Positions 57,640 through 63,689 of a stretch of 64,000 nt of DNA are shown here, one piece after another. This stretch comes from Oryzomonas sagensis. Its GTDB lineage: Bacteria > Desulfobacterota > Desulfuromonadia > Geobacterales > Pseudopelobacteraceae. Numbering within the stretch: the stretch's first letter is position 1; each line of letters begins with the position of its first letter. Location of the stretch: contig NZ_VZRA01000002.1 of assembly GCF_008802355.1 (NCBI RefSeq), positions 65,709 to 129,708 on the forward strand, read 5' to 3'. A program made the position numbers and the translations under genes. The notes below the pieces were generated by a model, which was not told where the DNA came from, did no database searches, and saw only the letters and a list, made by a program, of their open reading frames with translations.

Positions 57640-58359
57640 ATGAAATTTCAGCCCATAAAACCGAAGAAGGTGTCGGCCCAGATCGCCGAGCAGATCCGCG
57701 CCTCGATCCTGGCGGGGGAATTCTCTCCCGGCGACAAGCTCCCCCCGGAGCGCGAGCTGGCCGAGATGTTCGGCGTATCCCGCCCGTCGGTGCGCGAGGC
57801 GCTCAATATCCTGGCTGCGGCCGGGCTGGTCATGTCCTATCAGGGAGGGGGGACGGTGGTGCTGTCCCTGGTGGAGATGCCGGGGGGGAACCCGCTCTCC
57901 GAACTGATCCGGTCGGAGCAGGAACGGGCCCTGGACGTGATCGAGGTGCGCAAGGGGATGGAGTCCTGGACCGCCTACTATGCGGCCCAGCGGGCGCTGC
58001 CCGAGGACCTGCGGCGCATGGAGGAGATCATCGGCGGCATGGAGCGCAACCTGGACGGCCTGAAACCTTCCGAGGACCTGGACGCCAACCTGCACATCGT
58101 GATCGCCCGCGCCACGCACAACATCGTCTGGCTCCACCTCATGCAGAGCCTGTTCGACGCCATGAAGGAGTTCCAGCAAACCGTCTGGCGGGCGGTCTAC
58201 CTGACCAGCGACGACCACCACCTGCTCTTCGGCCACCACCGCCGCATCTTCGAGGCCATCAAGGCCCGGGACGCGGAAACCGCCCGGGAGGCGATGATCG
58301 CCCACCTCACCTTTGCGGAGCAGCGCAGCAGCGCCTACGTCACGCGGCAGCAGGCATAG
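57640..58359 (+). CDS. lldR: FadR-subfamily GntR regulator, LldR-like
   Basis: A 239-residue repressor. The N-terminal winged helix is SAQIAEQIRASILAGEFSPGDKLPPERELAEMFGVSRPSVREALNIL, a textbook GntR pattern. The C-terminal part is all helical, with LDANLHIVIARATHNIV (metal-binding Asp and His) and HHRRIFEAIKARDAETAREAMIAHL, the FCD domain. FCD members of the LldR type bind lactate. The location after lctP-glcD-glcF, with palindromes upstream of lctP and lutC, supports control of lactate genes. The last 20 bases overlap the 3' end of a convergent gene. Symbol given by context; the effector is unproven. Confidence 0.82.
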   Translation: MKFQPIKPKKVSAQIAEQIRASILAGEFSPGDKLPPERELAEMFGVSRPSVREALNILAAAGLVMSYQGGGTVVLSLVEMPGGNPLSELIRSEQERALDVIEVRKGMESWTAYYAAQRALPEDLRRMEEIIGGMERNLDGLKPSEDLDANLHIVIARATHNIVWLHLMQSLFDAMKEFQQTVWRAVYLTSDDHHLLFGHHRRIFEAIKARDAETAREAMIAHLTFAEQRSSAYVTRQQA

Positions 58360-60424
58360 TCCCGCCGCTCCCGTCTTCCTTCCCCTCCCCCTGTGCCGCG
58401 GCTGCCGGCTCCTCCAGCCTGCAGATGCCGATCTTTTCCAGCGCCTTGATCTGCCGCAGGGAATTGCGCGACAATTCGAAGCGGTCCATCATGAACCCGA
58501 TGCTTTCGAAGTAGAAGATGGCGTCCTGCAGGGCGCGGGCGTAGTTCTCCGCCCCTTCCGGCTGCTGCTCCGGCAGGCAGATCAAGACCTCGCCGCTGTC
58601 GATCAGGTGCCAGGCGAGGTTGATGGTCGCCTTCCCTCCCCGCTCAACCACACAGACATAGGCGCCGCAAATCTGTGACCGCCTCCCCTCCGGCGCGGCC
58701 TGGACCACGTTGGCCGAGCCGTAGAGCTCGACGATGTCGTCGGTCGAATGGTAGGAGATGACCGCCACGTCCGGGGCATAGCGAAAGGCCGCTCCCCCCC
58801 CTCCGCTTGACGGGCCGCCGAAGCCGCCGAACCCGGAAAAGCCCGAGTCGCTATCCACCAGCCCCAGGGCCGCAAAAGGCGATTCCACGTGACGCTCCAC
58901 GGCCACCGGCGCTTCGGAAGCGGATTGCGGGTACAGGGACGGAACCGGTGGCGGCGGCGGGGAAAGGGAAGCGGCGGCTTGCTCAAGCTCTTTCAGCCTT
59001 TCCTCCAGGGACTGCTTCTCCCTCTTGAGGTGTTCGACCGCCTTGTGGGCCTTTTTCTTGAAGTTGCCGGCAATGGTGTCCCACACCTTTTTCTCGCCCA
59101 ACACCTGCTCCAGCTTGGACGCAAGGGAGTTCTGTTCGGCTTGGGCGCCCTTCAGCTCAAGCTCCCTATCGGCCAGGAGCGTCTCGAAACGCTGCTGCTC
59201 CTCCCGTCTGCCCTCTTCCAGTCGCTTGACGCTTGCGCGCAGATCTGCACGTTCCTGCTCCAAAGCCTCCCGCTCCCGCTGCCATGCGATGCCCGCGCTC
59301 TCCTTTATGACTGCCAGTTCGGCCCTGAGCGCCTCACGCTCGTTGACCAGCACCTGTTGTTCCTTCATGACGTTCATCAACGTGCCCTGCACGACGCCGT
59401 TCTCGTGGCGGGCGGCCGCCAACTCATCCCGCAAGGCCTGCTCCCGCTCCGTTGCCGCAAGCTCTTCAGCGGCCCGTGAGGCGGCCTCCTTGGAACGGTG
59501 CTCCTCGGAGCTCGAACGTTCGGCCGCGGCGTCCTGGTGGAGCCGGTCCAGTTCCCGGCGCAGGCCGGCCGACTCCTCTTCGGCCCGTTCCCGGCGGCGG
59601 TCCAACTCCTCCGCTCTGGTCTCCGCGTCCCGGCGCTGGGCGCGCTCTTGGGCGAGGAGCTCCTCAAGGTCGCGCAGCGCCTCGGCCTTGCCCTGCAACT
59701 CTGCATGCAACCCGGCGGCAACGTCGCTTTCCGACGCGCCCTGTGGCTCTCTGCCGGCCAACTCCTCCCGAAGCGCCTTCTCCCGCTCCTGGTACGAGGC
59801 GGTGATCCTCTCCTGTTCCTGCTTTATGGCCGTGACGGTCCGCTCGGCCATCCGCTCGGTTGCGGCCTTGGCACGCTCCATATCCTTCAGCGCCGTCCTG
59901 AGGTCGGCAATCTCGGCGGAAAGCGCCGCAACCTCGGGCGACGGGGCATCGGGCACGGACGGTGCAGATGGTTGGGGCGCGGGTGAGGGGGGCTCCACGG
60001 CTGGTGCGGCGTTTTTGGCTGGTTGCTTCCCGCCTCGGGGCGGGGCGGGGGGGCGCATGACGCTGATGCCGCGTATGATGACCTGGCGCATGGCCGGGCT
60101 ATAGTCGAGTTTTACCGGTTCCATGTTGAAACCCATGGACTTGGTGAACTTCAGGGCTTCGTTGGCGAGGCGTTTCTGGTCGGCGGGCTTACGGGTATCG
60201 CAGGTGGTGGAAAAGATGACGGGGCGTTGGGTGGTCGTATCGAAGAAAGCGACATACACGGAAAAGGCGTCGTCCTCGCGGGCGGTGCAGACGTAGGCCT
60301 CGCACAGGTGCCCCTGGCACTGTTCCTCGGTTGGAACGGCACTGTTGGAGGAACGGTAGATCTCGGCGACATGGGGCTCTTTTATCTCGATGTGGCTCAA
60401 GGATTGATTCAGGGAAAACGCCAT
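58340..60424 (-). CDS. Coiled-coil protein with two homologous end domains, riboswitch-controlled
   Basis: A 694-residue soluble protein, not recognised. Residues about 18-124 and about 563-670 are similar. VAEIYRSSNSAVPTEEQCQGHLCEAYVC parallels IVELYGSANVVQAAPEGRRSQICGAYVC, and ALKFTKSMGFNMEPVKLDYS parallels AIFYFESIGFMMDRFELSRN. Both end in an IxVMR/IGICR-type strand. Between them is a Pro-rich hinge (about 125-163) and a coiled coil of about 380 residues (165-545) rich in E, R, A and L, then a Gly/Pro segment. There is no signal peptide or membrane segment. The start ATG 60424 has GGGGG upstream; the open frame runs to 60502. A GEMM-type aptamer and a sigma70-like promoter precede it. Function unknown; a filament or spacer scaffold is conceivable. 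Confidence 0.8.
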   Translation of the reverse strand: MAFSLNQSLSHIEIKEPHVAEIYRSSNSAVPTEEQCQGHLCEAYVCTAREDDAFSVYVAFFDTTTQRPVIFSTTCDTRKPADQKRLANEALKFTKSMGFNMEPVKLDYSPAMRQVIIRGISVMRPPAPPRGGKQPAKNAAPAVEPPSPAPQPSAPSVPDAPSPEVAALSAEIADLRTALKDMERAKAATERMAERTVTAIKQEQERITASYQEREKALREELAGREPQGASESDVAAGLHAELQGKAEALRDLEELLAQERAQRRDAETRAEELDRRRERAEEESAGLRRELDRLHQDAAAERSSSEEHRSKEAASRAAEELAATEREQALRDELAAARHENGVVQGTLMNVMKEQQVLVNEREALRAELAVIKESAGIAWQREREALEQERADLRASVKRLEEGRREEQQRFETLLADRELELKGAQAEQNSLASKLEQVLGEKKVWDTIAGNFKKKAHKAVEHLKREKQSLEERLKELEQAAASLSPPPPPVPSLYPQSASEAPVAVERHVESPFAALGLVDSDSGFSGFGGFGGPSSGGGGAAFRYAPDVAVISYHSTDDIVELYGSANVVQAAPEGRRSQICGAYVCVVERGGKATINLAWHLIDSGEVLICLPEQQPEGAENYARALQDAIFYFESIGFMMDRFELSRNSLRQIKALEKIGICRLEEPAAAAQGEGKEDGSGGTMPAAA

Positions 60425-60520
60425 ACAGCACCCCCATGTAGTGCCGTTTTCCCAAGGGAGAGAACGGCCGGAACCGGTTTTGACCCCCCTTGACCACCAC
60501 AATATGCACGGGTGCCCAGG

Positions 60521-60611
60521 ATCTGATCTTTCGGCACCCGGCTGTCTCCGTGAGACCCGTAGGCTATCCGTCCCGTCATCGCTGGCGGTTTAGTAGTATC
60601 GCTTATCAGAT
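60521..60611 (-). promoter_or_regulatory. GEMM-I/GEMM-Ib-like cyclic dinucleotide riboswitch
   Basis: On the minus strand, P1 is ATCTGAT (60611-60605) paired with ATCAGAT (60527-60521), 7 bp. The joining region reads ACTACTAAACC, then the P1b stem CCG..CGG with a GCGA tetraloop, then GGGACGGATAGCC. P3 is GTCTC/GAGAC, and then comes ACAGCCGGGTGCCGAAAG. Geobacter GEMM-Ib aptamers that sense 3',3'-cGAMP are known to carry AUACUAAACC, GGAAAGCC, GGGUCU and GAGACAGCCGGG; the match is by memory. An alternative helix CGGGTGCC (60540-60533) with GGCACCCG (60516-60509) would break P1. The switching outcome is unclear because no U-run follows. Confidence 0.75.
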
Positions 60612-60642
60612 GGTCAGTAACTGACTGATTTATGTGGAATTA

Positions 60643-60670
60643 ATTCTAAGCGTGGCCGCCGGTTTGTCAA
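60643..60670 (-). promoter_or_regulatory. Sigma70-type promoter for the riboswitch transcript
   Basis: On the minus strand, a perfect TTGACA (60670-60665) and TAGAAT (60648-60643, five of six) are separated by 16 bases. Transcription would start near 60636, about 25 bases before the aptamer, giving a leader of about 210 bases before the start at 60424. Confidence 0.62.
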
Positions 60671-60709: not shown

Positions 60710-61996
60710 TCAGCGTTTCATGGCGTCGTCCATGACCTTGTAGGCGCAGAACTCGCCGCACATGGTGCAGGCCCCGTGGTCGGCGACCGGCGAGTTGGCG
60801 CGGAACTCCCGGGCTTTGTCCTCATCCAGCGCCAGGGCGAATTGCCCCTCCCAGTCCAGCTTCTTCCGGCATGTGGCCATCTGGATGTCCTTGTCCATGG
60901 CGCCCCTGACCCCCTTGGCGATGTCGGCCGCGTGGGCGGCGATGCGGGAGGCGATCACGCCGTCGCGCACGTCCTGCACGTCCGGCAGGCGCAGGTGCTC
61001 GCTGGGGGTGACGTAGCAGAGGAAGTCGGCCCCGGCGGCGGCCGCAATGGCCCCGCCGATGGCGCAGGTGATGTGGTCGTATCCCGGCGCGATATCGGTG
61101 ACCAGGGGCCCCAGGACGTAGAACGGCGCGCCGTGGCACAGGCGCTTCTGCAGCAGGATGTTGGCCTGGATCTGGTTCAGGGGCACATGCCCCGGCCCTT
61201 CGATCATGACCTGTACCCCGGCCTCCTGGGCGCGCTGGGTCAGTTCTCCCAGGAGGATCAGTTCCTGGATTTGAGCCCGGTCCGTGGCGTCGGCCAGGCA
61301 GCCGGGGCGGAAACCGTCGCCCAGGGAGAGGGTCATGTCGTATTCCTTGGTGATATCCAGGAGTTTGTCGAAGTGTTCGAAGAGCGGGTTCTCCTGGCGG
61401 TTGTAGGCCATCCACTCGATGGTGAAGGCACCTCCGCGGGAGACCACGTCCATGAGGCGCCCCTCGTTCTTCATCCGTTCCACCGTGGAGCGGGTCACGC
61501 CGCAGTGCACGGTGATGAAGTCCACGCCGTCCTCGGCATGCTTGATGATGCCGGCGAAGATGTCGTCCACCGTCATGTCCACGATGGCCTTCTTCTTGAC
61601 CCGCACGGCGTCCAGGGCGGCCTGGTAGAGCGGCACGCTGCCGATGCAGGCGTTGGTTTCCGCCACCACGGCCCGCCTGATCTCGTCCACCGGCCCGCCG
61701 GTGGAGAGGTCCATGATGGCGTCGGCCCCGTATTTCACTGCGGTGCGGGCCTTCTCCAGCTCCTTCTGCATGTCGGTATCATCCGAAGACGAGCCGATGT
61801 TGGCGTTGATCTTGGTGCGCAGGCCGGTCCCCACCGGCAGCGGGGTGCCGTTGGCGTGCTTGATGTTGTGGCAGATGACGATGGTGCCGGCTGCCAGACC
61901 GTCGCGGATGAATTCGGGTGGGACCCCTTCCGCTGCGGCTGCGATCTGCATCTGTTCGGTAATGAGGCCCCGGCGGGCGTATTCGAGTTGGGTCAT
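60710..61996 (-). CDS. thiC: Phosphomethylpyrimidine synthase ThiC
   Basis: A 428-residue radical-SAM enzyme that turns aminoimidazole ribotide into hydroxymethylpyrimidine phosphate for thiamine. [17 protein letters not shown] and [15 protein letters not shown] are family motifs. The C-terminal [11 protein letters not shown] is the CX2CX4C cluster-binding motif that holds the [4Fe-4S] centre. GGAG precedes the ATG at 61996. The gene is downstream of thiED, with a gap of 33 bases, and both follow the TPP riboswitch at 63.6 kb, so they are likely one transcript. It is a normal, full-length member of the shorter (bacterial/archaeal) type. Confidence 0.95.
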
Positions 61997-62029: not shown

Positions 62030-63505
62030 TCAGCGGTCGCTTTGCCGGGCGGCGGCAAAATGATTCACCGGGCTATGCCCCTTGCCCAGGGGGTGGGCCA
62101 GGCGGATGGCGGCGGAGATGAACTCCTTGGCCTTTTCCACGGCGCTTCTGAGCGGCTCCCCTTGGGCGAGGAAGGCGGCGATGGCCGAGGCGTAGGTGCA
62201 GCCGGTGCCGTGGGTGTTGCTGGTGAAGACCCGTTCCGCCGCATATTCCCGGCATTCGTAGCCGTCGAAGAGGATATCCATGGATTGACGGCCGGCCAGA
62301 TGTCCCCCCTTGAGCAGAACGTTGGCCGGGCCCAGGGCGTGCAGGTCGCGGGCGGCCTGTTCCATATCCGCCTCGCAGCGGATCGCTCTCCCCAGCAGGC
62401 GCTCGGCCTCGGGGATGTTGGGGGTCAGCAGGTAGGCCTGGGGCAGCAACTGTTCCAGCAGGATGCGGAGCGAGTCCCGATCCAGCAGGGTCGTGCCCCC
62501 CTTGGATACCATGACCGGGTCGATGACCAGCGGGATATACCCGGTGCGCTCCGCCAGCAGTTCGGCCAAGGCCGAGACGATGGCCGAGGTGTGCAGCATG
62601 CCGGTCTTGATGACGTCCACCGGGATATCGGCCAGCACGGTCGTGATCTGATCCACCACAAAGGAAGGGGGGAGGCCGTGGATGGCCGAAACCTCCCTGG
62701 TATTCTGGGCGGTCAGGGCGGTCAGGGCGCTGGCGGCGTAGCTCCCCAGCAGGGTAATGGTCTTGATGTCGGCCTGGATGCCGGCTCCGCCCCCCGAGTC
62801 GCTGCCGGCCACGGTCAGGACCGAGCCGCGCGGGTAGGGGCAGGTGCGGTTGAAGAGCAGTTTCAGCTCGGCGGCGGCGATGTCGGGACGGGGACTGGAC
62901 AGGACCGACGAGATCACCGCCACGGCGTCGGCGCCGGCGTCGATCACCCGGCAGGCGTTGCTGGTGGTGATGCCGCCGATGGCCACCACCGGGAGCTTGA
63001 TGCGGTCGCGGATGGCGCACAGGCCGCTGGTGCCCGGCATGTGGGTGATGACCTTGCTGTCGGTCGGGTACATGGCACCGAAACCGATATAATCGGCCCC
63101 CTCCTGTTCGGCCTGGAGGGCCTCGTCCAGGTTATGGGTCGATTTGCCGACGATCTTGCCCGGGCCGAGCAGCTCCCGTGCCTCGGCAATGCCGCCGTCG
63201 TCCTGGCCCAGGTGGACGCCGTCCGCATCCAGTTCCCTGGCCAGCCGAATGTCGTCATTGACGATGAAGGTCACCCCGAAGCGCTTGCAGAGCTGCTTCA
63301 GCTCGCGCCCCTCCTCCAGGCGGGTCTCGTGGCTTTTCTCCTTGGCGCGGTACTGCAGCACCGCCACACCGCCACGCAGGGCGATCCGCACCCGTTCCAC
63401 CAGATTGTCATCCTGGTCGGTGATCAGATACACGCCCCCAACCGGCGGAAATACCTGCGCCGTATTGTTGATGACGAGACGAAACCGTTTGCTGCAGTCG
63501 TCCAT
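62030..63505 (-). CDS. thiED: Bifunctional thiamine-phosphate synthase / HMP(-P) kinase (ThiE-ThiD fusion)
   Basis: A 491-residue fusion. Residues about 20-220 are ThiE: VYLITDQDDNLVERV, VLQYRAKEK, VNDDIRLARELDADGVHLGQDD and YIGFGAMYPTDSK, which join the pyrimidine and thiazole phosphates. Residues about 225-485 are ThiD: VLTVAGSDSGGGAGIQADIKTI and GTGCTYASAIAAFLAQGE, which phosphorylate HMP and HMP phosphate. The ThiE-then-ThiD order is a known fusion. The start is taken at ATG 63505, with GAGGG 8 bases upstream; the open frame to 63652 reaches into the riboswitch. It is regulated by the TPP riboswitch just upstream. Confidence 0.94.
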   Translation of the reverse strand: MDDCSKRFRLVINNTAQVFPPVGGVYLITDQDDNLVERVRIALRGGVAVLQYRAKEKSHETRLEEGRELKQLCKRFGVTFIVNDDIRLARELDADGVHLGQDDGGIAEARELLGPGKIVGKSTHNLDEALQAEQEGADYIGFGAMYPTDSKVITHMPGTSGLCAIRDRIKLPVVAIGGITTSNACRVIDAGADAVAVISSVLSSPRPDIAAAELKLLFNRTCPYPRGSVLTVAGSDSGGGAGIQADIKTITLLGSYAASALTALTAQNTREVSAIHGLPPSFVVDQITTVLADIPVDVIKTGMLHTSAIVSALAELLAERTGYIPLVIDPVMVSKGGTTLLDRDSLRILLEQLLPQAYLLTPNIPEAERLLGRAIRCEADMEQAARDLHALGPANVLLKGGHLAGRQSMDILFDGYECREYAAERVFTSNTHGTGCTYASAIAAFLAQGEPLRSAVEKAKEFISAAIRLAHPLGKGHSPVNHFAAARQSDR

Positions 63506-63524
63506 GGCATATCCCTCGTGGTAA

Positions 63525-63556
63525 TAAAAAAGCCGCACTGTTGTGATACAGGCGGC
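63525..63556 (-). terminator. Riboswitch expression-platform terminator
   Basis: On the minus strand, GCCGC (63556-63552) and GCGGC (63536-63532) flank a 15-base loop and are followed by a run of T (63531-63526). The same GCGGC sequence is at the 3' end of the TPP aptamer, so formation of one helix can exclude another. Fits transcription attenuation when TPP is bound. Confidence 0.65.
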
Positions 63557-63584
63557 CGGGTTCATGGATAAGATGAACAGTCGT

Positions 63585-63680
63585 GCAAGCCGCTTTCCTA
63601 CGCCGGAATTAACCGGATCAGGTTCAAAGGGTCTGATTCCAAAAGGAATCATCTCAGCTCTTGCGAACTCCCCCAGGGCC
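63585..63680 (-). promoter_or_regulatory. TPP riboswitch (THI element)
   Basis: On the minus strand the hallmark GAGCTGAGAT is at about 63660-63651, a P3 hairpin of GATTCC/GGAATC lies at about 63652-63637, and ACCCTTTGAACCTGATCCGG with GTTAATTCCGGCGTAGGAA covers 63632-63595. These are the conserved thi-box segments that grip the pyrimidine and the pyrophosphate of TPP. It stands about 80 bases before thiED, with a terminator between. Exact ends are approximate. Confidence 0.92.
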
Positions 63681-63689
63681 TTGTAATTG

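Follow-up and report, generated by a model that had tools for sequence, protein, structure and literature searches.

Upstream of an uncharacterised coiled-coil gene of Oryzomonas sagensis lies a leader that raises a double question, namely which signal its RNA senses and how that signal is read out when the U tract of a normal terminator is missing. The window is the whole stretch of DNA analysed here, 64,000 nucleotides long, and NCBI taxonomy places Oryzomonas in the Geobacteraceae, order Geobacterales. The reading favoured here, with reasonable confidence, takes this 5' leader, which precedes a single gene, to be a GEMM-Ib (3',3'-cGAMP) riboswitch, an ON-switch whose hairpin is probably a weak, leaky terminator or a pause site. 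The elements of the locus are as follows.

60643 to 60670, minus strand: sigma70-type promoter, TTGACA-16-TAGAAT, 11 of 12 consensus matches.
60521 to 60611, minus strand: GEMM-I aptamer with P1 (RF01051 match 60604-60530, 35.3 bits; 18-sequence alignment).
60611-60605 and 60527-60521, minus strand: P1, ATCTGAT / ATCAGAT, from the sequence.
60594-60587, minus strand: ACTAAACC, from the sequence.
60594, minus strand: A at the equivalent of Vc2 G20, a cGAMP-type signature (RF01051 alignment; selectivity after PMC6456294).
60573 to 60588, minus strand: P2 hairpin with a GCGA tetraloop (60582-60579) and a C60585/A60576 mismatch, from sequence and alignment.
60573-60562, minus strand: GGACGGATAGCC, from the sequence.
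60556-60552 and 60548-60544, minus strand: GTCTC/GAGAC hairpin, from the sequence.
60533 to 60540, minus strand: 5' arm of the switch helix, CGGGTGCC, also within the aptamer 3' strand (sequence, homologue leaders).
60509 to 60516, minus strand: 3' arm of the switch helix, GGCACCCG, from the sequence, unchanged in three species.
60500 to 60508, minus strand: tail right behind the switch helix, TGCATATTG, with no U tract (nT 1.32, 15-nt tail).
60479 to 60499, minus strand: conserved block TGGTGGTCAAGGGGGGTCAAA, without known role, 0 of 21 positions changed in three species.
60429 to 60435, minus strand: probable ribosome-binding site GGGGGTG, from the sequence.
58340 to 60424, minus strand: 694-aa protein in which long helices at 163-222 and 238-481 (coiled coil) lie between an N domain and a C domain of the same family (open reading frame, profiles, model).

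The promoter comprises TTGACA (60670-60665), a 16-nt spacer and TAGAAT (60648-60643), and it lies where the original prediction had placed a strong sigma70-type promoter. Shuffles of the region yield a mean of 0.2 sites of its 11/12 quality. Four other Oryzomonas leaders (L022 to L025) keep TTGACA, with TAGAAT or TAAAAT as the -10 box in the aligned leaders. A thiC-family gene (60710-61996) lies directly upstream of the leader, and a TPP riboswitch (RF00059, 71.2 bits, 63578-63684, minus strand) precedes a gene with thiE-/thiD-type domains (62030-63652) and the thiC-family gene.

The aptamer displays the features of GEMM-I, including P1, P2 with a GNRA loop, P3 and conserved joining strands, with one P2 pair broken. 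P1, the GCGA loop, the joining-strand motifs and the GTCTC/GAGAC hairpin all occur at the predicted positions; the C-A mismatch in P2 had been overlooked, and it is found in 3 of 18 aligned sequences, those of the window and the two relatives closest to it. The predicted class, put to the RF01051 (GEMM-I) covariance model, passes the gathering score of 35 by a margin of 0.3, with an E-value of 0.0034 in a search of the 64-kb window. In a 501-base search the top model of the clan is RF03167 (c-di-GMP-I-GGC), at 31.1 bits against a gathering score of 59. Taken by itself, the aptamer is no more stable than its shuffles (z -0.02, with 96 of 200 folding as stably), so it is the covariance model and conservation that carry the case for GEMM-I. 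When 18 leaders are aligned, both sides have changed with pairing kept in 4 of the 21 consensus pairs. Evidence from the single sequence is thus marginal, and it is the relatives that settle the assignment.

Relatives of the gene were found with a profile of its N domain, which matches in 60 of the 141 genomes of the order. Of these 60 genomes, 58 contributed upstream DNA from 61 loci, reaching up to 1500 nt at 30 of them and about 900 nt at 31; G111, G117 and G127 each supplied two loci, and G019 and G098, whose weaker matches fall in short frames, were left out. A GEMM-I-type aptamer lies upstream at 40 of the 61 homologue loci (the window, 17 of 29 and 22 of 31). The examined upstream stretch contains no GEMM-I-type match at the other 21 loci (L043, L044, L046, L047, L049, L051, L052, L056, L058, L059, L060, L062, L068, L069, L072, L076, L077, L078, L080, L085 and L089). 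The homologue aptamers were scored as RF03167, the best model of the clan, into which RF01051 matches at the same sites were merged; E-values are 0.0024 or lower, and window and homologue leaders score 31 to 55 bits, all below the gathering score of 59 of this same-clan family. Whole genomes of the order contain from 0 to at least 28 GEMM-I matches each, and a genome holds a few thousand genes. Since GEMM-I thus lies near about 1% of genes or fewer per genome, 40 of 61 is far from chance. Neighbouring genes differ at the scanned loci outside Oryzomonas (L038 to L040; nine proteins scanned over L037 to L040), indicating that switch and gene stay together while their surroundings change. Searched against plasmids, the leader had no match. 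Together, the RF01051 match and the aptamers at homologue loci bear out the GEMM-I class, and the leader is an RNA switch of a known class, mostly ordinary in kind.

Its expression platform is unusual and has probably changed recently. An alternative helix between the aptamer 3' strand and 60516-60509 had been proposed as the switch, and the mutually exclusive pairing of 60540-60533 with this arm is present, though the U tract for a normal terminator is absent. Among the 40 leaders with an aptamer, 37 have a U tract (nT of at least 2.5) behind a hairpin on the aptamer 3' strand. This count includes 34 identified by script, the leaders below threshold being the window, L022, L023, L028, L082 and L093; in the last three the script chose another hairpin, and the tails after the arm, named by eye, give 4.28, 4.35 and 4.71. 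In L027 the U-tract hairpin is built from other arms than in its relatives. The remaining tails have nT values of 1.32 in the window, 1.63 in Oryzomonas japonica (L022) and 1.79 in G051 (L023), while two further Oryzomonas leaders keep a U tract (L024, 4.10; L025, 3.24). The leader tail is ordinary for the window, where 9.3% of sampled positions reach an nT of 1.29, and intrinsic termination is therefore doubtful. The simplest reading, with no tree behind it, is a single loss of the U tract in one clade.

The proposed mechanism follows the published Geobacter GEMM-Ib switches (pgcA/GSU1761, Gmet_0970, pilM), with which the leader shares the P1-P2-P3 layout. In the accessible text of PMC9262584, aptamer and terminator of the G. 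metallireducens pilM switch are mutually exclusive and cGAMP turns transcription on; the aptamer here would likewise exclude the hairpin. Binding of cGAMP would keep 60540-60533, the aptamer 3' strand, engaged in P3 and the binding pocket. In the ligand-free state this strand would pair with 60516-60509 and the aptamer would be lost. Based on the pilM switch and the anatomy of the homologue leaders, the ligand should raise expression. The competing helix of a transcriptional ON-switch of the pilM/pgcA type is thus also found here, but the U tract behind it is absent; from this loss, shared by the window and the two relatives closest to it, we infer that the ligand-free hairpin of these three is probably a weak, leaky terminator or a pause site.

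The same lack, which sets this leader apart from 37 of 40, indicates that the readout is not that of an ordinary intrinsic terminator. It is possible, and tentatively proposed, that the cGAMP switch of one Oryzomonas clade has dropped intrinsic termination altogether while keeping arms and aptamer identical to the letter, and is read out through translation, pausing or factor-dependent termination, possibly via 60499-60479 and possibly with reversed sign. If true, this would be a natural GEMM-I case caught in the middle of a change of expression platform. In single or consensus folds the block 60499-60479 itself pairs either with early codons or with the 5' half of the aptamer, with no compensatory change; its pairing with the aptamer is judged to lie within chance by a rough estimate, and both candidates were set aside.

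For the favoured reading, the ligand is probably 3',3'-cGAMP. Position 20, for which we take the corresponding column of the RF01051 model, is A60594 in the window and A in all 40 homologue leaders with an aptamer, window included. Vc2, the type of c-di-GMP-I (GEMM-Ia, RF01051), has the Rfam family and the fold in common with the leader, but its G20 is A here. In Geobacter GEMM-I switches, as the accessible text of PMC6456294 describes, A20 confers cGAMP selectivity and A20G shifts it to c-di-GMP; the Gmet_0970 switch also has A at position 20. The specificity position thus agrees with the predicted GEMM-Ib subtype, the ligand being read from this putative signature. A sensor of c-di-GMP, or of both nucleotides about equally, is unlikely. 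It would fit the description of the G20 position as contributing to selectivity without being a hard filter (PMC9262584, available portion) and the response of the G. sulfurreducens omcST switch to both nucleotides (PMC6456294, available portion), yet A20 recurs in every homologue leader, and U60592/G60569 forms, by the RF01051 alignment, a U-G pair at the foot of P2 like that of the cGAMP-binding pilM switch (PMC9262584, same portion). This alternative and those concerning readout are not mutually exclusive and may overlap.

The genome provides a wider setting for this signal. It contains 20 GEMM-I matches above the cut-off, the window copy being the weakest, with A at position 20 in 15 (window included) and G in 5 (L001, L002, L003, L004 and L006; one read by script and four by eye). 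All 14 other A20 switches have a hairpin with a U tract, at nT 4.18 or more. Their first genes (11 distinct genes) all open with a hydrophobic signal-like stretch, with mean hydropathy of 1.89 or more over 12 residues compared with 0.50 for the window gene, a comparison based on crude gene calls and on hydropathy rather than a signal-peptide predictor. Among the G-type switches, L002 and L003 precede genes with signal-like starts, whereas L001, L004 and L006 do not. Tandem cGAMP-type GEMM-I aptamers precede single genes at the G000 loci L010/L013, L012/L014 and L015/L017. GGDEF matches number 24, with the motif legible in 17. Serine-type loci among these are L106, L107 and L110 (GHLVGS) and L118 (GYIKAS, GGDDF), a sequence signature only, in which the serine is presumably the one described for cGAMP synthases. 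The accessible part of PMC8835794 describes an active-site serine in such synthases, one GGDDF enzyme among them.

The gene itself begins at an ATG that is conserved in relatives, and its nearest named relative is in Oryzomonas japonica (L036), with 94% over the N domain. The N-domain profile also recovers C domains in relatives (in G051, for example, at E 1.4e-7), indicating that the domain is duplicated in the 694-aa protein; the full-length model, poor overall (pLDDT 68.2, pTM 0.27) and used for secondary structure only, gives the C domain a similar order of elements. The N-domain model is better (pLDDT 85.7). The 694-aa protein has no match at E 0.1 in Pfam and none near a cut-off in NCBIfam; eight N domains give weak isolated matches only in Pfam, their profile finds none among PDB sequences, and a Foldseek search of the PDB with the N-domain model finds none at E 0.001 or better. 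Fold comparison of the N domain returns WGR (Z up to 5.9, rmsd 3.4, 89 aligned) and DcrB (Z 5.1, rmsd 3.5, 82 aligned), scores of a level that is common. With no signal-like start (hydropathy 0.50), the product is probably cytoplasmic rather than a cell-surface part, and the background remark on surface parts in the original prediction does not fit it. The known Geobacter GEMM-Ib targets are a cytochrome, a pilus or an envelope protein, in contrast to the probably cytoplasmic coiled-coil protein here.

Near its start codon, the ribosome-binding-site region contains GGGTGC, the complement of GCACCC in the 3' arm of the switch. A rewiring of the clade's readout to translation, in which the ligand would free 60516-60509 to pair with GGGTGC and turn the gene off, is quite unlikely. 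It would account for a lost U tract beside an intact aptamer and two intact arms, and the conserved downstream block 60499-60479 would be available for a role. The 3' arm finds a perfect 6-nt match no more than 20 nt from the start codon; such a match is reached by 2 of 51 crudely called window genes, this one included, and six or more by 3 of 144 at other loci. Constrained folding predicts a less accessible ribosome-binding site for the aptamer state than for the alternative in 4 of 5 leaders (alternative/aptamer state: L022, 0.60/0.51; L023, 0.45/0.16; L024, 0.65/0.54; L025, 0.45/0.39), but the window's own value is 0.83 in both states. Moreover, translational control is not needed in L024 and L025, where a U tract is present, and the pairing of arm and ribosome-binding site shows no compensatory change. 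Translational control by the switch arm is accordingly not preferred, the folding being flat in the window and the lower access in four relatives insufficient. A hairpin CCGTT...AACGG (60467-60444, minus strand) is predicted just 5' of the gene in the consensus of five Oryzomonas leaders, and L024 and L025 carry an extra stretch with pairable ends between leader hairpin and start codon.

Comparison of the window with L022 and L023 reveals how strictly the switch is kept. The 109-nt block from CTGACC through the 3' arm, covering aptamer and arms, shows 0 changes in any pair of the three species. The 9 nt after the switch helix carry 3 to 5 changes per pair, the 5' spacer 3-6 in 25 positions, the promoter 0-2 in 28 and the stretch before the start codon 1-5 in 32. 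At fourfold sites of the gene, L022 differs from the window at 36 of 297 (12%) and L023 at 62 of 248 (25%). Assuming independent neutral sites, the chance of 107 unchanged sites is about 4e-14 at 25% and about 1e-6 at 12%. A riboswitch in decay, its terminator lost, its aptamer going and its gene constitutive, would explain the missing U tract, the broken P2 pair and the lowest score among the genome's 20; it is nonetheless very improbable, as 0 of 109 changes against such divergence argues for a switch under selection. The place of the old U tract appears free to change while the switch is kept, which is what makes the finding odd. All 8 leaders of the family retain TGACC before P1, with GGTC downstream (60616-60611 and 60496-60491, minus strand), a pair that might form an outer helix or serve as a DNA site. 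The helix in question, TGACCA/TGGTCA, would enclose aptamer and hairpin; it was rejected, since among 1000 shuffles of the downstream sequence 23 to 492 pair equally well. Finally, a chance resemblance to GEMM-I, which the marginal score and E-value in the window might suggest, is of negligible probability given that 40 homologue loci carry a same-clan aptamer in this position, 22 scoring 45-55 bits and the others besides the window 31-51 bits.

Against the favoured cGAMP ON-switch weigh the narrow score (35.3 versus 35 bits), the P2 mismatch, the shuffle-level folding, the ordinary tail and the 21 of 61 loci with no match. The coiled-coil gene was originally assigned to a GEMM-Ib-type regulon, and the aptamers at 40 of 61 homologue loci, all with A20, support this membership. 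The accessible portion of PMC6456294 mentions unnamed hypothetical genes under GEMM-Ib control. In the accessible portions of the literature, including PMC6456294, PMC8835794 and PMC9262584, the coiled-coil family is not named as a cGAMP target; a Geobacter homologue may appear in Kellenberger 2015 or Nelson 2015.

With the switch upstream of so many of its members, the family looks like a conserved cGAMP target, and an uncharacterised protein family present in 60 of the 141 genomes of the order would thereby be tied to cGAMP signalling. This target, in contrast to the first gene products downstream of the genome's other 14 A20 switches, probably acts inside the cell. The lost U tract, in turn, provides a natural test of how riboswitches alter their readout.
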